In this document: in pieces, positions 7,092-37,136 of the stretch
Position numbering within the stretch: position 1 is the first letter of the stretch
Layout of the letters: each line of letters begins with the position of its first letter
NCBI RefSeq assembly: GCF_022370755.2
Contig: NZ_CP092364.2
Location: 558,001-622,000 of the forward strand
DNA from: Mycolicibacterium goodii
GTDB lineage: Bacteria; Actinomycetota; Actinomycetes; Mycobacteriales; Mycobacteriaceae
DNA length: 64,000 nt
Reading direction: 5' to 3'
Program-made: the position numbers and the translations under genes
Notes under the pieces: generated by a model
Seen by the model: the letters and a program-made list of their open reading frames with translations, nothing else
What the model was told of the DNA's origin: nothing
Database searches by the model: none

Positions 7092-8111
7092 TCAGGCAGC
7101 GGGCCCGTGGCTGACCGGAGCCGCGGCGGGCGCCGGGGCGGGCACGGTCGTGGTCGGCTGGACACCGGCCGGGACCAACGCGGGATCAGCGGCCTCGACC
7201 GGAGCGCCCTCCGCCGGGGCGGCCGGCGGAACCGCGGTCGCCACGTTGCCTGCGGAGGCACCGGCCGGAGCACCGGCGGGAGCCGCCTCGGCGGGCAGGG
7301 TGCCCTCGGCGAGCGGTGCGCCGTGCGAAACCGGCGTGGTGCCCTCGGGAGCCGCAGCGGCAGGGGCCTCTGCGGGGGCCGGGATGGCCTCGGCCGCGGT
7401 GGCCTCGGCATCGGCCGCGGTGGCCGCGGGCAGGTCGGTGGCACGGCTGCCCGCACCGGCGGCGGCCGGCGTGGCGGCGGTGCCTTCCTCGGCGGTCGAC
7501 GCCGCAGCCGGGGCCGGGGTCGCCTCGGTCTCGGTCTCGGTCTCGGCCTCGGCCGCAGGAGCCGCGGCGGCCGGGGACGACGCCGCGGCCGGGCTGCTCT
7601 GGCCGGTGCCGCGCGGCGCCGGAGCCGACGCAGCCGGCTTGTCCCACACGAGCAGATCACGGCCACCGGCGTTGTAGACGACGGTGGTGGGCTCGGGGCC
7701 GGTCACGTCGAAGTAGATCTTGCCGCTGGTCTTCTCGCCCTGGGCGATGGTCGACGGGTTGACCCCCTGTGGGGAGGCGACCTGGAACAGCGCGCGGTAG
7801 TTCTGCCCATCGGCGGCGCGCACGTTGAAGTTGGAGATGATCGGGGTCACGTTGCCCTGGATGGCCTCATCGGTGGCCGTGATCTCCCACAGGGTGCCGC
7901 GCACCTGGTAGGGGATCGTGTCGCTGCTGGGCTTGAGGTCGGTCACGGTCCAGGCCTGGACGACGTCGCCGTTGTTCAGCTTTGCCGCGCTGCCGAGCGA
8001 GGACGTCGTGACGGCACTGGCATCGCCGAACGCGGCGGGCGCGGTGCCGAGAACGGCGGCGGCGGCAACGGCCGCAGCGGCCACGGCCGTACTGAGATTC
8101 GTGATCTTCAA
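7092..8111 (-). CDS. secreted MPT63-like protein with Ala/Pro-rich tail
   Basis: Secreted protein of 339 residues. After a signal peptide (cut near AAFGD) comes a domain of about 125 residues that closely resembles the MPT63/MPB63 immunoglobulin-like antigen, including QAWTVTDLKPS, NVRAADGQNYRALFQ and GKIYFDVTGPEPT. M. tuberculosis MPT63 ends there; here a low-complexity tail of about 180 residues rich in Ala, Pro, Thr and Glu follows. The start chosen is TTG 8111 because AGGAG stands eight bases upstream and it gives the family's MKIT start. GTG 8120 has no room for a ribosome site. Function of MPT63 is unknown. Confidence 0.82.
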   Translation of the reverse strand: MKITNLSTAVAAAAVAAAAVLGTAPAAFGDASAVTTSSLGSAAKLNNGDVVQAWTVTDLKPSSDTIPYQVRGTLWEITATDEAIQGNVTPIISNFNVRAADGQNYRALFQVASPQGVNPSTIAQGEKTSGKIYFDVTGPEPTTVVYNAGGRDLLVWDKPAASAPAPRGTGQSSPAAASSPAAAAPAAEAETETETEATPAPAAASTAEEGTAATPAAAGAGSRATDLPAATAADAEATAAEAIPAPAEAPAAAAPEGTTPVSHGAPLAEGTLPAEAAPAGAPAGASAGNVATAVPPAAPAEGAPVEAADPALVPAGVQPTTTVPAPAPAAAPVSHGPAA

Positions 8112-8262
8112 GGCATTCACTCCTGAGTTCTCCGATTTACGGCAGGCCCCCGACAGTGGGGATGCCCACTTCATCAGCGAAGTTAGCAGTATTAGAGGAG
8201 TCTGTGAAACCTGACCGGGTCATCCGAGCCTCTGCTTACGGTGCTGTCGGCGCCGAAATCGC

Positions 8263-8523
8263 TCAGCGAGGCCAGTAGCTGGACACGATCGCAGCTACCG
8301 ACACCGCGGCGATCACGCCGAGGTAGCCGATCACCAGGCGGGTGTCGCGCAGGGCGCATTTGCTGTGCATCAGTCCTGCTCGCCGGGCCCTGACGTACCC
8401 GACCAGGCCCAGAACGGCGAACCCCGCCACGGCCCAGGGCCCCAGAAGCCACGCCAGCAGCGCGACCGTGGCGTACACACACAGCCGTAGCGGGTCGTAC
8501 GGTTGCCCGACGGGTTCGCTCAT
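8263..8523 (-). CDS. small membrane protein, last gene of the radical-SAM operon
   Basis: Small protein of 86 residues with two or three hydrophobic segments (about 16-42 and 62-82) separated by an Arg-rich loop (RARRAG). The ATG overlaps the stop of the radical SAM gene by four bases (ATGA). I do not recognise a family. Its coupling to the radical SAM and Lgt-like genes suggests a membrane partner of that system. Confidence 0.7.
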   Translation of the reverse strand: MSEPVGQPYDPLRLCVYATVALLAWLLGPWAVAGFAVLGLVGYVRARRAGLMHSKCALRDTRLVIGYLGVIAAVSVAAIVSSYWPR

Positions 8524-10088
8524 GGGATCTCGATGAGTGGTAACGCCGCCGTGGTGCGCCCGGAAGCGAGCGAGAGCCGTTGGCGGCTCAACGCCGGCCA
8601 GGCCTGCACCGCGCAGAACGGCGCACACTGATGCTGTTCGTCGGAACGGGTCCCGACGTGCACGCAGCACTGGATCAGGCGTTCCTCGATCATCGTGGAC
8701 ATGTCCATGAACGGCTTGACCGTCAGGCGCACCACGCGTTCACCGAGCAGCTTGCGGATCTTGCGGCGACGTCCCGGTAGCGCGGACGACGCCAGCGTCA
8801 ACAACGTCGACATGCCCAGATCGCAGTTCTCACAGATGTTGCGCCACACATCGCCGATCTCGGGATGCGACAGCGAGGACTGTTCGGAGAGCAGTCCGAG
8901 CAGTGATTCCCGTACGGCCAGGCGGAGTTCGCGCGGGATCTCGGTGTCGGCGATGCGGTTGGCCACCAGTCCGAGCTTGTCCTTGAGACTGTCGGTGCCG
9001 ATCAGCGACACCAGGGAGCGCCATTGCTCGCTGTCGTCGCGCACCAGGTACCCGACCGAGCAGCAGTGCGGATGTGAGCACGGCAGCGCGGTGAGATCGC
9101 GCCAGGTGACCGCTCCGCCGGTCTGGGGCCCCAGGCGTTTGAGGACGCCGGTGTGGGTGAGCCGGTCGAGCGGGTCGAGCGCACCGGAACGGCCCGAACC
9201 GAATTGGGGCTGGATCGTCAGCCCGCCGACGTAGGGAGTGTCGAGCGCCAGTCGGACCATGGCCCCGATCTCGTGGTCGTTGACACCGAGTGCTGCCGTC
9301 ATCACCAGCGTGGTGAAGATCTCCCGTTCGGACAATCGCCGCAGCGCACGGCTTTTCACCCTCCCGAGATCGCCGCCGCGGTGATGACGGTGCGCCTCGG
9401 CGGACAACCCGTCGTACTGCAGGTACACCTCGACACGTTCGCGGTGCCGTGTCAGCAGATCCAGCAGCGTGTCGTTGTTGGCGATCCGAACTCCGTTGGT
9501 GTTGACCAGGATCCGGGTGATCGGTCGGTCCACCAGTTCGGTGAGCAGTTCGGGCAGATCGGGATGCAGCGTCGGCTCGCCACCGCTGAGCATCAGCACG
9601 TCGATGCGGCCGTTCTCGCGCCCCAGGCGCTGATCGACGTTGGCGAGCACCTCGGCCACCGGGACCACGTTGCGCAGGTCGGGCGAACTGTCGGTGAAAC
9701 ACGTGGGGCAGCGCAGGTTACAGGCCTCGGCGATGTCCTCCAGCAGGATGCAGGTGTGCTGTGTCTGCATCTCCGGCAGGCCGCGCAGATACGCCGACGG
9801 AATCGGGTCGAAGTTGCCTGTGACATCGGGGATGTGGGCCTTGGTCGGCGCGGTCCACTCCTCCAGGTAGGAGAGGATCTCGGGGTCCTCGTCGTAGAGG
9901 GTGCGCACCAGACCGTGTGCCGGGCAGCCCCGTTCGAGCCAGATCCGCCCGTCGCGTTCGATCAGCATCGCGGCGAGTCGCGGTACCTCGGCCAGCGGGC
10001 GTTCGGGGGCGTCGGCGTGACAGTGTGGGCAGAACGCGGTGACGTAGCGGTGCAGGCGGTCCCCGCGCAACCCCATGCCGGTGTTCAC
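8520..10088 (-). CDS. radical SAM enzyme, tetraether-synthase (Tes)-like
   Basis: Radical SAM protein of 522 residues. The SAM-cluster motif is CNLRCPTC (Cys 123, 127, 130), followed by the LSGGEPTLHPDL SAM-binding motif. The N-terminus has a second metal site typical of archaeal tetraether synthase relatives: CPHC at 20-23 and CPAHG at 55. Several Cys pairs lie in the C-terminal half (CCSVG, ICENC, QCCVHV, QCAPFC), suggesting auxiliary clusters. Known Tes enzymes join lipid alkyl chains. Here the substrate is unknown, but operon partners are membrane proteins including an Lgt-like enzyme. GTG start, GTGA overlap with the gene upstream. Confidence 0.85.
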   Translation of the reverse strand: MNTGMGLRGDRLHRYVTAFCPHCHADAPERPLAEVPRLAAMLIERDGRIWLERGCPAHGLVRTLYDEDPEILSYLEEWTAPTKAHIPDVTGNFDPIPSAYLRGLPEMQTQHTCILLEDIAEACNLRCPTCFTDSSPDLRNVVPVAEVLANVDQRLGRENGRIDVLMLSGGEPTLHPDLPELLTELVDRPITRILVNTNGVRIANNDTLLDLLTRHRERVEVYLQYDGLSAEAHRHHRGGDLGRVKSRALRRLSEREIFTTLVMTAALGVNDHEIGAMVRLALDTPYVGGLTIQPQFGSGRSGALDPLDRLTHTGVLKRLGPQTGGAVTWRDLTALPCSHPHCCSVGYLVRDDSEQWRSLVSLIGTDSLKDKLGLVANRIADTEIPRELRLAVRESLLGLLSEQSSLSHPEIGDVWRNICENCDLGMSTLLTLASSALPGRRRKIRKLLGERVVRLTVKPFMDMSTMIEERLIQCCVHVGTRSDEQHQCAPFCAVQAWPALSRQRLSLASGRTTAALPLIEIP

Positions 10089-10687
10089 AGTCGATACATC
10101 TCCGGGTTGATACCGGTGCAGAACCCGGCGGTGAGCACGGACATCAGTGCCCAGCCGACCATGAGGCCGATGCCGAGACCGCGGGCTTGAGGGCTGTTGC
10201 GACGCAACAGCAATGTGCCTCCACCGAACGCGATGAGAAGCAGGCCGATCGCGGCGAGGCCGAAGACCAGGCTCGAGCCGGTGGTCTGGGTTTCGAGCAT
10301 GCCACCGGCGATCAGCGCGGCGAAGCCCACCACGAGGTTGATCGCGGCGTAGACGAACGGGCCGATGATCACCATGGCGATCGAGATCCGGGAGCGGGAT
10401 GGGGGCGGTCCGTAGCCGTGTGGCGGGGGTGAGGACGGATAGTCACCCGGGTAGGGCTGCGTGTAGCCGGGCGGCGGTGGTGGTTGGTCGATGGGTGGTC
10501 GCCCGGGCGGCGGTATCGGCGGCGGTGGCGGCCCGGCCTGCGGGCCGAACGGTGCACCGGGAGGACGCAGGTCGTATTCGTAGGCGGGCGGAATGTCTTG
10601 CGGCCCGTCGTATTGCGGCCCGGAGTCTTCCGGCGGCTCACCGGAAGGCGGGGGTGATGCGGGTGGCTGGGGTGGGGGAGAGGTCAT
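10085..10687 (-). CDS. Pro-rich N-terminus, multi-pass membrane protein
   Basis: Protein of 200 residues. Residues 1-98 are strongly Pro/Gly/Tyr-rich and hydrophilic; residues 99-190 contain about three to four membrane helices (DUF4190-like layout). The ATG overlaps the Lgt-like stop by four bases and its own stop overlaps the radical SAM start by four bases. The Pro-rich arm may be a protein-interaction platform; no enzymatic motif is visible. Confidence 0.75.
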   Translation of the reverse strand: MTSPPPQPPASPPPSGEPPEDSGPQYDGPQDIPPAYEYDLRPPGAPFGPQAGPPPPPIPPPGRPPIDQPPPPPGYTQPYPGDYPSSPPPHGYGPPPSRSRISIAMVIIGPFVYAAINLVVGFAALIAGGMLETQTTGSSLVFGLAAIGLLLIAFGGGTLLLRRNSPQARGLGIGLMVGWALMSVLTAGFCTGINPEMYRL

Positions 10688-11469
10688 ACCGGCACTTCCT
10701 CACTGCGGGCTGCGCGCCGATAGTAACCGTGTCGATAGCCGTAGCACAGCCGAAATCCGATGATCAGCAACGTGGGCAGCAGGAACCATTGCGGCCGGGT
10801 GAGATCCAGCCACACCGTCTCGTTGGCGCGGACGAACTCGACCAGGAAGCGGAACACCGCGTATGCGGCGACGTAGATGACGAACAACTCGCCGGGACGG
10901 GTGATGCGGTGACGCAGCCACAGCAAGAGCGCGAAAGCGACAAGCTGGAACGCGATCTCGTACAGGAACGACGGATGCATGGCCTGACCCGTCAGGCAGG
11001 CTGGGCATTCCGGGGTGGTCGCCGGCGCGTGGACACCCCAGGGCAGGGCGGTGGGTCGTCCGGGGGCCTCGGTGAGATGGCAGCCGATCCGGCCGATGGC
11101 CATGCCGAGCGCGACCGCGGGGGCGAACAGGTCACCGGTCTTGCCGCGGTATCCCCCGATACGTTTGGCGATGTGCACGCCGACGTAGGCGCCGAGCAGT
11201 CCGCCGAGGATGCTGCGTGAACCGAACTGCCAGGCCTGAATGACGCTCGGATTGGCGCTGAGGTCCATGTGCTGCGCCCATCCCGACAGTCGCATACCGA
11301 TGGCCCCGCCGACCAGTGCTCCGGCGACCGCCACGATCGACTGATCGTTGACGGCCCCCCGTCGGCGGGCCTCGGCGATGAACACCAGCACGGCGGCGAA
11401 CACCCCGAGCGCGACGAACAATCCGTGGACCTCGACGGTCACGGGGCCCAGGTGCCATTCGGGTGCCAC
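10684..11469 (-). CDS. divergent Lgt-like membrane protein (Lgt paralogue)
   Basis: Integral membrane protein of 261 residues in the prolipoprotein diacylglyceryl transferase family. Retained family features: GRIG with Arg127, HPSFLYE at 165-171 and FRFLVEF with Arg207 and Glu211. Departures: the usual His of the FHGG motif is Leu (ILGG, residue 88) and the Asn after the GRxG motif is Cys130. By hand alignment these correspond to E. coli His103 and Asn146, both functionally important. M. smegmatis is known to carry a second, dispensable Lgt homologue with no lipoprotein phenotype; this is likely it. GTG start, 24 bp after the ZIP gene. Confidence 0.85.
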   Translation of the reverse strand: MAPEWHLGPVTVEVHGLFVALGVFAAVLVFIAEARRRGAVNDQSIVAVAGALVGGAIGMRLSGWAQHMDLSANPSVIQAWQFGSRSILGGLLGAYVGVHIAKRIGGYRGKTGDLFAPAVALGMAIGRIGCHLTEAPGRPTALPWGVHAPATTPECPACLTGQAMHPSFLYEIAFQLVAFALLLWLRHRITRPGELFVIYVAAYAVFRFLVEFVRANETVWLDLTRPQWFLLPTLLIIGFRLCYGYRHGYYRRAARSEEVPV

Positions 11470-32906: not shown

Positions 32907-33130
32907 CGACATCGGTGCGGGTCAGAGCCGTTTTCTGGCCAATTCTGGTGGGGTTAGTGAGTTGTCGGATCGGCTCGCGTCCGTGTACGGACACAAATCG
33001 CGCCAGTGGGCCGCGCGCCAGCAATTCCGCGACACGGGGTGGTTACGGCAACGTAAGTTCGGCATCCAACCTGGTAAACGGCTGTATTCTCGTCTAGCTT
33101 CGTATTCGCTGCGTTGGGGAGAGTTGAGTT

Positions 33131-33754
33131 TTGTCCGAAGACATTGCCGAGATACTGACCAAGGCTTGGAAGGCCGTCCAAGACGCTGGCATTCCAGAGC
33201 CACTGCATGAGCTTGCGCTCGGTCGCGCCATCGATTTTCTCGCTGGTGGCTCTGCCCCGCGACTCAATGGCCAACAAACAGGTTCGCAGGACGTGGGACA
33301 GCAATCTGACTCAACGGGTTCTGCAGGGGGTGGCGGTACAGCTTCGGGGCCATCAACCAGCGAAGATGATTTTTACGAGAAGATGAGCAAAGGCACTGGC
33401 GTGTCAAAGACCTTGCTGGAACGCCTAGTGCACATACACGAAAACGCACCGCACATCCTTTTGAAGACCGGCCAGCTGCCGAAAGAAAATTCGGCAGCAC
33501 AGAAGGTGATCGCGCTGTTGATCAGTGTGGGCACCCACTACTGGACCGGCGAGAACGAAATTGATATCTCGCTGGTTCGTGCGGAGGTTGACCAGTTCAA
33601 CCGGATGGATTCCAACTTCAGCAAGAACGTCGACAAGATCGAGAACATTACCTTGACAGGGGTCAAGGGAGGCAACAAGAAGATCAAGATTCGCCGAGCG
33701 TACTTGGATAGCTTTAAGGCTGAACTGTCGAAGTATGGGCAGTTCACTGAGTGA
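33131..33754 (+). CDS. island cargo gene 1, unknown
   Basis: Protein of 207 residues from TTG 33131. Residues 1-40 are helical and charged; about 41-75 is a Gly/Ser/Thr-rich linker (GSAGGGGTASGPSTSEDD). A C-terminal alpha-helical domain of about 130 residues (KGTGVSKTLLERLVHIHENA to the end) follows and ends with a basic patch (GGNKKIKIRR). No catalytic motif is evident. The C-terminal domain could be a wHTH-type or protein-interaction domain. The stop overlaps the next start by four bases (GTGA), so products 1 and 2 are co-produced. Confidence 0.8.
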   Translation: MSEDIAEILTKAWKAVQDAGIPEPLHELALGRAIDFLAGGSAPRLNGQQTGSQDVGQQSDSTGSAGGGGTASGPSTSEDDFYEKMSKGTGVSKTLLERLVHIHENAPHILLKTGQLPKENSAAQKVIALLISVGTHYWTGENEIDISLVRAEVDQFNRMDSNFSKNVDKIENITLTGVKGGNKKIKIRRAYLDSFKAELSKYGQFTE

Positions 33755-34512
33755 GCGCGAGCGTAATTGAGGCTGGTTTCCTCGCGGCGGGGATGCCCGC
33801 CGACCTCGTCGCGGAAGTGATCGCGGCATACGAGGAAGCAAAGACTCGGTTCCACCGGCGCGACTATCGGCCGTCGTCCGTTGAGGGAGCACGATTCTCT
33901 GAGGCGGTGTTCCGCGTACTTCAGTGGGCGGCGACGGGTACTTACACGCCACTTAGCGACAATCTGCCTAAGGTGCCTACGCTGCTTGGCCAGTTGGCGC
34001 AGGTGACTAGCGCTGACGACAGCGTGCGGATACACATTCCCCGAACGCTTCAGGCCGTTTACGACATTCGGAACAAGCGCAACGTGGCGCACCTGGGGAG
34101 CATCGAGATTGGGCTCCAGGACTCGGGTCTTGTTGTCCACATACTCGATTGGGTAATGACGGAACTAGTCCGGCTGTATCACAACGTTCCCGCCGCCGAA
34201 GCGCAAAAGATCATCGAGGATATCGTCAAGAAGGAAGTGCCCGCGATACAGGTGATCGACGGCTTTCCGCGCCTGTTGAAAGACGTGCCAGGTACAGACC
34301 ACATTCTGCTACTGCTCTACCGCGAGGGCGCGGGCGGTGTAGATAAAGCGCAACTGTGCAATTGGCTGCCAGAGGCACACCGCAGAAACTTCGCCCGTAA
34401 CGTAAAGCGCCTCAACGATAGACACCATATCCACCCCTCTGGCGACCGAATCTTCCTGACTGATCTCGGTATCACCGAGGTTGAGAGCAAGGGTCTTCTC
34501 GATCCGCTATAG
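33751..34512 (+). CDS. island cargo gene 2, HEPN-like motif plus C-terminal winged helix
   Basis: Protein of 253 residues. A helical N-terminal half contains IRNKRNVAHLG (Arg107, His114), an R-x4-6-H motif like that of HEPN ribonuclease/effector domains. The C-terminal ~80 residues (HILLLLYREGAGGVDKAQL ... ITEVESKGLLDPL) have the pattern of a winged helix-turn-helix. GTG start coupled to gene 1. Combination of HEPN-like and HTH parts in a mobile island suggests an abortive-infection or toxin-like role; this is inference. Confidence 0.82.
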   Translation: MSASVIEAGFLAAGMPADLVAEVIAAYEEAKTRFHRRDYRPSSVEGARFSEAVFRVLQWAATGTYTPLSDNLPKVPTLLGQLAQVTSADDSVRIHIPRTLQAVYDIRNKRNVAHLGSIEIGLQDSGLVVHILDWVMTELVRLYHNVPAAEAQKIIEDIVKKEVPAIQVIDGFPRLLKDVPGTDHILLLLYREGAGGVDKAQLCNWLPEAHRRNFARNVKRLNDRHHIHPSGDRIFLTDLGITEVESKGLLDPL

Positions 34513-34553
34513 ACGCGTACGGGCTTTACCCTTGGCGAGGAGGAACATTAGGC

Positions 34554-35198
34554 ATGTCGTGGCTGGAGTTCATCTTTCAAATGACGTCCGCACTCGCATG
34601 GCCTGCCGTTGCTGCCGGTTCAATCGCCTTGCTGCGCAAGCAGATCAAGTCCGCGGCGGACAGACTGGTTGCACGAATCGGGCAGATTCAACATCTGAAA
34701 GCACCAGGTGTAGCAATTGATTTCAGAGACGAAGTCGAACAGCTGGCCAGGGATACGAAAGAGCTGGAGCACGAGGCCCCGAAGGCGTTGCCCGCCAAAG
34801 AGTCAAAGGAGCTAAAGGACGTCGTATTGCCGCCCGAGACGGCGGACGAACGACTGACCAAGTATCAGTTGCTGGCGCTCATAGACCCGAGAGCTGCAGT
34901 CCTTCTTCCGTTCGCTGACATAGAAGGGGCCATCCGGCAGCGGTTTCACTTCCTATACCCGGACCAGCGGCGGGGCCTCAGCTTCCTCCGCATCCTTGAC
35001 ACGCTGCAGGCTGACCGAAGGATTGCCCCTGAGACTGCAGATGCCCTGAGACAAATGAGCAGGATCAGGAATGAAGCGGCGCACGAATCTACAGGCGTCG
35101 ATGCGGATGTGGCCAACCTGTTTCTTGAGTCCGTCGGTAACGTTCTCGAGTACCTACTTCTCCTAGGTTTCTTCGATGACCCTGAGCCGGCGGCTTAG
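34554..35198 (+). CDS. island cargo gene 3, membrane-anchored HEPN-like protein
   Basis: Protein of 214 residues. An N-terminal hydrophobic helix (about 5-27) is followed by a coiled-coil-like charged region (28-95). The C-terminal helical domain carries SRIRNEAAHES (Arg172, His177), the RNxxxH form seen in HEPN/DUF4145-like domains. GAGGAGG stands about 11 bases before ATG 34554. Its stop overlaps the convergent integrase stop by four bases. A membrane-bound effector or sensor partner for gene 2 is a reasonable guess. Confidence 0.82.
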   Translation: MSWLEFIFQMTSALAWPAVAAGSIALLRKQIKSAADRLVARIGQIQHLKAPGVAIDFRDEVEQLARDTKELEHEAPKALPAKESKELKDVVLPPETADERLTKYQLLALIDPRAAVLLPFADIEGAIRQRFHFLYPDQRRGLSFLRILDTLQADRRIAPETADALRQMSRIRNEAAHESTGVDADVANLFLESVGNVLEYLLLLGFFDDPEPAA

Positions 35199-36241
35199 TT
35201 CGCCTTCCGCTGCATTGGTGCGACTGTCGCCGCTGTGTCTACAACACCGCGTCCGACCTTTGGCGCTACCTGTTCGTCCTCGTTGATGTAGTCCGCGTAG
35301 GTGGTCAGGGTGAGCACGAACGTAGAGTGCCCAAGCCACTTCGACACCTGCATGTAGTGCTCCCCGGCGCTCAGGTTCATGGTGGCGAACGTGTGCCGCA
35401 GATCGTGAAAGCGGACAGCTCCGAGACCTAACGCTCTCGTCGCGGGCTGCAGGTAGTGCTCATACAGGCTTGCGGCGCACACCGGCTTAGCCCAATCGAA
35501 CGCATGGCGATTGCGTCGGCCCGGGAACAGGGGAGCGTGGCCGTACTTGCCGGCAAACGGGTGGACCGTAGTCAGGTAGTCGCGTAGCTCGTCGGCCAGC
35601 CACGGCGCTAGGGGCACTATGCGATCCGCGCTGGCGTCGCTTTTGGGTCGTAGGTCCAATCTCGGTTCTTGAGCGAAGCGGTGCGGACAACGCGGGCGCT
35701 GCCCCGCGGTGCCCGGTATGTCGGACAGCGTGATGTCTTGCGCCTGTAAGCCCTGCGGCTCTGCGGCCCGAACGCCAGTGTGGGCGGCGAACAGGATCGC
35801 CAGCGCGTAGACGCGGTTGCCGTGGCGGGTATAGGTGTGCGGCTGCTCACCAGCTGCGCTGGGTATTACGGTGACCTCGCGCGATGTGGCGATGCAATTG
35901 ACTACCGACGCTACTTGGTTGGCCGTCAGGGGATGGTGCTTGAATGGCTGCGCGCTGCGCTTGGTGGTGCGGCGGCAGTTGGCGATGACCGGGTTGACGG
36001 CGATGTCCTGATCATCCTGTGCCATATCAAGAATCCGCTTGAGTGTTCCGATCATGTGTTTCACCGTCTTTGGTGAGCGCACCACCAGTTCAGGCCGGGT
36101 CGGGGCAGTGGGCTTGGCCCTGCCGTGACGGCGCTGATGTGGTGTCAGCAGCTGCGCGCGGAAGCTGGTTACGTCGGCTGTCGTGATACTCGCGACCGTC
36201 CTACTGCCGAACAGGGGTGCAAGGTGCGTGCGGTTGACGAG
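35195..36241 (-). pseudogene. tyrosine integrase, C-terminal portion (5' part cut off by IS21)
   Basis: Contains part of the core-binding domain (HLAPLFGSRTVASITTADVT, upstream of 36085) and the whole catalytic domain: Arg in HTGVRAAE, HxxR in FHDLRHTFAT, the WLGHSTFVLT box and nucleophile Tyr in TTYADY. The frame continues upstream without a stop to the IS end, where it is severed from its N-terminal domain. An internal GTG at 36085 could give a 296-residue fragment, unlikely to work in site-specific recombination. Confidence 0.88.
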
Positions 36242-36296
36242 GCTCAGCGAAAGTGCTCAGAGTTGATCGGTGAAGGTGCTCACCTGTGAGCTGGGT

Positions 36297-37136
36297 TCAC
36301 TGTAGTGGTTGTCGGGTTCCGGTGGTTGCTTTGCGGAGGTTCTCGGATCGGGCGTGGTGGTCGCGAAGGCGGTAGGAGTTGCCGTCGAGGTTGAGCACGA
36401 CTGAGCGGTGCAGGAGCCGGTCGAGCATCGCGGCGGCCACGGTGGTATCGCCAAGGACCTCACCCCATTCGCCGACGCCTCGATTGGTGGTGATCACGAT
36501 CGAGGTCTTCATATAGCGTTGCGCCACAACCTGAAACAACGCCGAGGCAGCCTCGCCGGGCAATGGGAGATAGCCCAGTTCGTCGATCACCAGCAGCGTC
36601 GGCCCGGCGTAGAACCGCATGGTGGTGGCCCAGCGTCCCTCGATCGCCGCGCGGTGACACCGTGCGGCAAGGTCGGCGGCGGTGGTGAAGTAGGTGCGAT
36701 ATCCAGCGTGAGCAGCCGCGCGGGCCAACCCCACCGACAGATGTGTCTTGCCGACCCCTGGTGGTCCGATGAGCAGCACGTTGGTGGCGGTCTCGAGATA
36801 GCGGCAGGTGCCGAGCTCGGCGATGAGCTTGCGGTCCAGTCCGGGGGCGGCGTCGTAGTCGAAGTCCTCCAGGGAGGCTGGGGTGGGCAGGCAGGCGAAC
36901 CGCAACCGGCCGGCCAGACGGCGGGCCTCGGTGGCTTCAACCTCGATCGACAGCAGTTGCTCCAGGGCGGCGGTCATCGAGGTGCCCTCGGCCTGAGCGC
37001 GGTCGAGCACCGAGGGCAGCGCTTCGGCGGCGTCGTGGAGTTTGAGCACGGCCAGATGGCCACGCAGGCGTTGATAGAGGCTGGCTTGGGCGGCGGTGCT
37101 GGGCGTGGGCACCGCATCCGAAGTGGTGGTGGTCAT
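36297..37136 (-). CDS. istB: IstB-like ATP-binding transposition helper
   Basis: AAA+ ATPase of 279 residues. Walker A GPPGVGKTHLSVGLA, Walker B LLVIDELGYLPL and the sensor segment SIVITTNRGVGEWGEVLGD are intact. The N-terminal helical region recruits IstA in this family. The start ATG overlaps the istA stop by four bases. No truncation is visible. Confidence 0.92.
   Translation of the reverse strand: MTTTTSDAVPTPSTAAQASLYQRLRGHLAVLKLHDAAEALPSVLDRAQAEGTSMTAALEQLLSIEVEATEARRLAGRLRFACLPTPASLEDFDYDAAPGLDRKLIAELGTCRYLETATNVLLIGPPGVGKTHLSVGLARAAAHAGYRTYFTTAADLAARCHRAAIEGRWATTMRFYAGPTLLVIDELGYLPLPGEAASALFQVVAQRYMKTSIVITTNRGVGEWGEVLGDTTVAAAMLDRLLHRSVVLNLDGNSYRLRDHHARSENLRKATTGTRQPLQ

Follow-up and report, generated by a model that had tools for sequence, protein, structure and literature searches.

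The window analysed here, 64,000 nucleotides of Mycolicibacterium goodii (contig NZ_CP092364.2, positions 558,001 to 622,000), comes from a single-contig genome of 6.74 Mb and holds a compact cassette of four genes on its minus strand: lgt2, a paralogue of Lgt; PRO, a Pro-rich membrane protein; a radical S-adenosylmethionine (SAM) protein related to Tes; and SMTM, a small membrane protein (Table 1). A sequence-only reading of this DNA had counted overlaps of four bases between successive genes, and the coordinates and the ATGA or GTGA sequence at each junction bear this out, SMTM starting with the ATG at 8523. In the best 80 of the 372 genome stretches that encode a relative, identified by a protein-guided scan of genome records, Lgt2 stays with a Tes-fold radical SAM enzyme from phylum to phylum, in most loci together with a PRO protein that has GxC at the end of its last helix. 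As the cassette joins a rewired Lgt and a Tes-shaped enzyme to a small membrane protein that conserves a cysteine at the C-terminal end, it suggests an undescribed route for attaching or tailoring lipids on a protein.

Table 1. The four-gene cassette, with positions counted in the window
Feature	Coordinates	Strand	Description	Basis
lgt2	10684..11469	-	Lgt paralogue, 261 amino acids	Pfam and alignment
PRO	10085..10687	-	membrane protein, 200 amino acids, proposed dedicated substrate	
PRO residues 170-200	10088..10180	-	last hydrophobic helix and tail GLGIGLMVGWALMSVLTAGFCTGINPEMYRL, conserved G188-x-C190	
radical SAM protein	8520..10088	-	522 amino acids, Tes fold, distinct subfamily	
SMTM	8263..8523	-	small membrane protein, 86 amino acids, conserved C15 and C56	

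Lgt2 matches the Pfam family LGT (PF01790) with 134.6 bits against a cut-off of 24.9 and has the Lgt fold. Aligned to 5azb and placed by the HGGL and GRLGN motifs (PMC13251419, cited, like the other papers below, from the parts of its text available), it has His15 for E. coli Tyr26, Leu88 for His103 and Cys130 for Asn146, and retains R127, E134, R207, E211 and R214; none of the E. coli-essential Y26/H103/N146 set is thus left. The sequence-only reading had recognised the loss of the His and Asn and the retention of the later Arg and Glu residues, both upheld by the alignment, and missed the change of Tyr26; its word "degenerate" is right for the replacement of essential residues but wrong for decay, the new residues being nearly invariant among 79 Lgt2 sequences (His in 79, Leu in 78, Cys in 79) and the arginines that bind the substrate phosphate (E. 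coli R143 and R239) present in all 79. Taken alone, the absence of H103 says little, because actinobacterial Lgts ordinarily carry Trp at that position (PMC13251419), as does the second, canonical Lgt of the M. goodii genome (Tyr23, Trp101, Asn144). The fold, the phosphate-binding arginines and an HPxxxYE motif are shared with Lgt (PF01790, 5azb) and MSMEG_5408, whereas Lgt2 differs from Lgt in its H/L/C signature, where Lgt has Y/(H, W or Y)/N, in its linkage to a radical SAM gene and a GxC-helix protein, and in falling below the cut-off of the equivalog model TIGR00544 (106.5 versus 118.9 bits). MSMEG_5408, the second Lgt homologue of M. smegmatis, is probably the orthologue of lgt2, judged from reported substitutions rather than full sequences, since the Y26H and N146C described for it (PMC13251419) match those of Lgt2.

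The radical SAM protein matches the Tes fold over its whole chain, with a score of 47.2 against at most 18.8 for any listed enzyme of ribosomally synthesized and post-translationally modified peptides (RiPPs); Tes and MoaA are followed in the ranking by SuiB and SkfB. With Tes (GDGT-MAS; M. jannaschii MJ0619, 7tol and 7tom) it shares an N-terminal rubredoxin-like CxxC..CxxH site (C20/C23/C55/H58), earlier noticed as CPxC/CPxHG, and the radical SAM CX3CX2C site (C123/C127/C130), and all seven residues are invariant across 55 sequences; C337, C342, C422, C474, C475 and C492 are also conserved. The earlier label "Tes-like" therefore holds for the fold and for both metal sites but not for family membership: the protein scores 150.8 bits against the cut-off of 450 for the Tes model NF045702, has neither the GCPYDCGLC [Fe4S4]N motif nor Met439 or Tyr459, adjoins lgt2 and belongs to a clade on its own long branch of 3.55 changes per column, in a tree from a quick search with 37 of 56 rows and long branches that we use solely for the separateness of the clade. 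The [Fe4S4]N cysteines C73/C77/C80 are absent from the window protein and from the three clade members aligned, and present in part in seven of the eight aligned relatives from other subfamilies. The highest score among NCBIfam models is that of TrsS (radical SAM (seleno)protein, NF045646), yet its 190.6 bits lie below the cut-off of 490, and of TrsS literature a table entry alone turned up. With both family cut-offs unreached, we reject identity with true Tes and with true TrsS. We group bacterial Mss with Tes as the closest known system, the comparison itself having been made with Tes rather than Mss. A second Tes/TrsS-related radical SAM subfamily occurs in some mycobacteria and other actinobacteria (loci L092-L096 and others); its aligned members retain the [Fe4S4]N motif, and no Lgt2 was found in their 19-kb loci.

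PRO is the Pro-rich membrane protein that the sequence-only reading described: its N-terminus is rich in proline, and hydropathy, judged by eye without a topology program, points to about three membrane helices. Across phyla the N-terminus is free to vary, and the final hydrophobic helix, charged in the manner of a signal peptide, finishes with GxC close to the C-terminus; the actinobacterial form is approximately GLGxGLMIGWALxSIxTAGFCTGxNPxLY. The gene is flanked by lgt2 and the radical SAM gene or, in Nonomuraea, immediately precedes lgt2, and in some cases there are two copies in tandem. Automatic filtering yielded 81 GxC-helix open reading frames (ORFs), some possibly called with too early a start, in 71 of the 80 loci, the cysteine lying 5-17 residues from the end; three loci added by eye (L135, with a tail of 23 residues, L154 and L189) bring the total to 74, and in L181 and L187 the slot is cut by contig ends. 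The filter required GxC, so the glycine at -2 is built in for the 81 ORFs. In an alignment of 30 sequences, drawn from this filtered set and the window PRO, the G and C are the sole invariant columns, and the motif is retained in 51 of 51 database homologues, found with a query region that included it. Minimal forms of 37 (L061), 49 (L115) and 85 (L062) residues consist of little beyond the helix. Other phyla have this C-terminal helix too, at the corresponding position or adjacent to it, and we reject PRO as a mycobacterial oddity. In three related metagenome-assembled genomes (MAGs; L111, L112 and L064) in which PRO was not found, a protein of 512-530 residues upstream of lgt2 resembles, by eye, a membrane-anchored molybdopterin oxidoreductase, and in the Oscillochloris MAG of L119 (around 2578-2803) a short tandem repeat encoding FRFQVSG units separates the PRO region from the radical SAM gene.

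In this invariant cysteine by a C-terminal helix, PRO resembles MYXO-CTERM and other C-terminal sorting tags; lipidation of the MYXO-CTERM-type cysteine by an Lgt-like enzyme has been proposed (PMC11980579). The PRO cysteine, however, follows the helix, an inverse topology; each genome holds a single tagged protein or two, located within the cassette, and no processing protease was noticed among the cassette neighbours, where gene calls are noisy. Of the 21 cassette genomes searched, 19 have one copy and 2 have two, every copy at cassette coordinates. In the phylum sample, a search with the actinobacterial tag profile scored at most 14 candidates per genome, and two weak matches near 8e-4, in G523 and G489, were disregarded. 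A genome-wide sorting tag is thereby rejected, copies being found solely within cassettes.

Lgt2 adjoins the radical SAM gene in 78 of the 80 loci, once on the opposite strand; in L137 and L187 the 557 and 162 bases available upstream of the radical SAM gene hold no piece of Lgt2. The loci span five phyla and include Mycobacterium, Nocardia, Nonomuraea, Planomonospora, Planobispora, Microtetraspora and Dactylosporangium as well as MAGs labelled Gemmatimonadetes, Blastocatellia, Oscillochloris and Rhodothermales. Within the genus, 51 of 198 genomes (our own included) carry the radical SAM clade, 49 of them whole, one in two pieces (G074) and one as a contig-edge fragment (G008), and five further genomes hold another radical SAM subfamily only. 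Lgt2 is found in 53 genomes: these 51, G140, in which the contig ends beside Lgt2, and G090, with a broken copy and no radical SAM gene nearby; in G063, scraps of the radical SAM gene and SMTM remain. In a sample of 396 genomes from the phylum, the radical SAM clade and Lgt2 occur in an identical set of 10; outside these, G396 retains the broken remains of a clade-like radical SAM gene close to the end of a contig, and no Lgt2 was seen there. As identity between phyla is high and presence patchy, the pattern would fit horizontal movement of the cassette as a unit. Neighbour clustering, on noisy gene calls, brought up no further universal partner.

The co-occurrence anticipated by the sequence-only reading thus holds for Lgt2 and PRO but much less for SMTM, which was found in 59 of the 80 loci (not in the other 21) and, with at most 26 candidates scored per genome, in 6 of 51 mycobacterial cassettes (not in the other 45). 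SMTM had no Pfam match over threshold and is a conserved family, with 2737 proteins at E <=0.01 among 7995 scored, of which the best 120 were viewed; it has a motif around SKCxLRDTRLV, and among 121 aligned sequences Cys15 is present in 121 and Cys56 in 120.

An Lgt-type enzyme beside a single dedicated helix-cysteine protein is most simply read as enzyme and substrate. The Tes fold of the radical SAM protein suggests that its substrates are lipid chains, and the arginines retained by Lgt2 suggest phosphatidylglycerol or a similar lipid as the donor; Mss, modelled with the architecture of Tes, joins the tails of lipids for which a phosphatidylglycerol head group has been proposed (PMC13274423). 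We tentatively propose, in the knowledge that it may well be wrong, that the cassette is a dedicated, self-contained protein-lipidation system with the PRO cysteine as the acceptor. The last helix of PRO would be oriented like a prolipoprotein signal peptide, the basic end cytoplasmic and the cysteine on the outer side of the membrane, and Lgt2, with its phosphatidylglycerol-binding arginines and altered pocket (His15/Leu88/Cys130), would place a diacylglyceryl thioether on this cysteine rather than on an ordinary lipobox. On the cytoplasmic side, with a hydrophobic tunnel like that of Tes as its site of action, the radical SAM enzyme could tailor the donor phospholipid beforehand or the attached acyl chains later, most simply by coupling chain ends, and PRO would end up with an unusual, possibly membrane-spanning, lipid anchor. 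SMTM would be an accessory; its role, the order of the steps and the product are the parts of the scheme that we infer. A more specific version, in which the Tes-fold enzyme couples acyl chains into a membrane-spanning or cross-linked phosphatidylglycerol and the rewired Lgt moves this to a C-terminal helix cysteine outside the lipobox rules, stapling the protein through both leaflets as a new kind of bacterial anchor, seems to us unlikely.

Several observations count against dedicated lipidation of PRO. The lipobox is a PROSITE-like pattern with a small residue at -1, and the PRO cysteine lies outside it: 2 of the 81 ORFs fit, the residue at -1 being mostly bulky. Four of the 80 loci (L111, L112, L126 and L178) have room for a PRO gene but show none, an upstream ORF in L178 ending in a helix with a cysteine but not in GxC, and none was found in L064. 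The actinobacterial tag profile gives no match in six (G297, G318, G355, G446, G527 and G535) of the phylum sample's 10 cassette genomes, although PRO-like ORFs were seen by eye in three of these six cassettes (L060, L061 and L062). The radical SAM protein is missing the three [Fe4S4]N cysteines of Tes and has Lys and Val in place of Met439 and Tyr459, residues conserved in archaeal Tes yet dispensable for its activity (PMC9433317). With the radical SAM enzyme in the cytoplasm and Lgt facing outward, the two would share a lipid only if that lipid spans or flips across the membrane, and the substrate and product of the scheme are putative. Finally, Y26, H103 and N146 are essential in E. coli Lgt, and MSMEG_5408 has been described with presumed low activity (PMC13251419).

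The last point would suit Lgt2 as a second, weak general Lgt, with the radical SAM enzyme tailoring the lipids of the general lipoprotein pool and PRO a bystander, the more so as the Leptospira Lgt, with N146C, keeps partial function in E. coli (PMC13251419). A canonical Lgt (Tyr23, Asn144) is still present in the genome, however, and Lgt2 departs from it at near-invariant positions while staying linked to PRO and the radical SAM gene; we find this explanation improbable. The same loss of essential residues might suggest a decaying duplicate in an accidental gene pairing, but near-invariant replacements in 79 sequences and linkage in 78 of 80 loci contradict this and rule it out for practical purposes.

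More serious is a pathway for lipids only. Here the radical SAM enzyme would work with Lgt2 to produce an altered membrane lipid, such as a phospholipid that spans the membrane or a lipid with a thioether; PRO and SMTM would serve as a scaffold, in recruitment or in electron transfer, and their cysteines would not be acceptors. The whole-chain Tes fold agrees with this, as do the free phospholipids that are the substrates of Mss and Tes (PMC13274423, PMC9433317), the conserved cysteines of SMTM and the few loci without a detected PRO. It leaves unexplained why just the G and C, both in a helix resembling a signal peptide, are invariant among PRO sequences from different phyla, why this helix is still there when PRO has shrunk to a 37-residue ORF in one genome, and why the neighbour of PRO is an Lgt-type protein, related to enzymes known to attach lipids to the cysteines of helices of this type; we consider it a somewhat doubtful but live contender. 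Peptide maturation, on the other hand, would have the radical SAM enzyme modify PRO or SMTM in the style of sactipeptides or RiPPs, Lgt2 lipidating or merely anchoring the product. The partners do look like precursor peptides, being small and fast-varying with a constant C-terminal motif and sometimes in tandem, and SuiB and SkfB come next in fold after Tes and MoaA; but the Tes match is far better than that of any RiPP enzyme listed, the N-terminal domain is the rubredoxin-like one of Tes and the target would be a membrane helix, which makes such maturation improbable in our view.

The overall interpretation of the sequence-only reading, an unknown modification of envelope lipids or lipoprotein lipids, is partly supported: two enzymes, of Lgt and Tes fold, are indeed paired, but the second is not a true Tes. 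In the open-access literature (most subscription papers lay outside the search) we found no description of the cassette, MSMEG_5404-5407/5408 included; papers covering both Lgt and radical SAM are, by their listing, unrelated to it, and those on tetraethers, mycobacteria and Lgt do not describe it. The zinc response of MSMEG_5406 was dropped as evidence, as the locus tag could not be mapped to the operon. Tetraether synthase has homologues in bacteria from which no lipids of this kind are known (PMC9433317, PMC8941075), and the cassette links one Tes-related subfamily with an enzyme of protein lipidation and with a likely acceptor protein, giving a concrete substrate hypothesis in culturable, manipulable organisms. 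If dedicated lipidation of PRO is true, lipoprotein biogenesis extends past the N-terminal lipobox.

Around the cassette, a ZIP-like ORF (by eye; no Pfam match) ends 24 bases before the start of lgt2, and the transcription unit in M. goodii may for this reason be longer than four genes. Directly downstream, at 7092-8174, is an MPT63-type (DUF1942) protein with a long Ala/Pro-rich tail. Farther away, a stretch of low GC (about 0.57 versus 0.67) followed by two ORFs, at 33100-37136, is probably a mobile island, the ORFs resembling by eye a tyrosine integrase (35195-36085, minus strand) and an IstB-type protein (36297-37136, minus strand).
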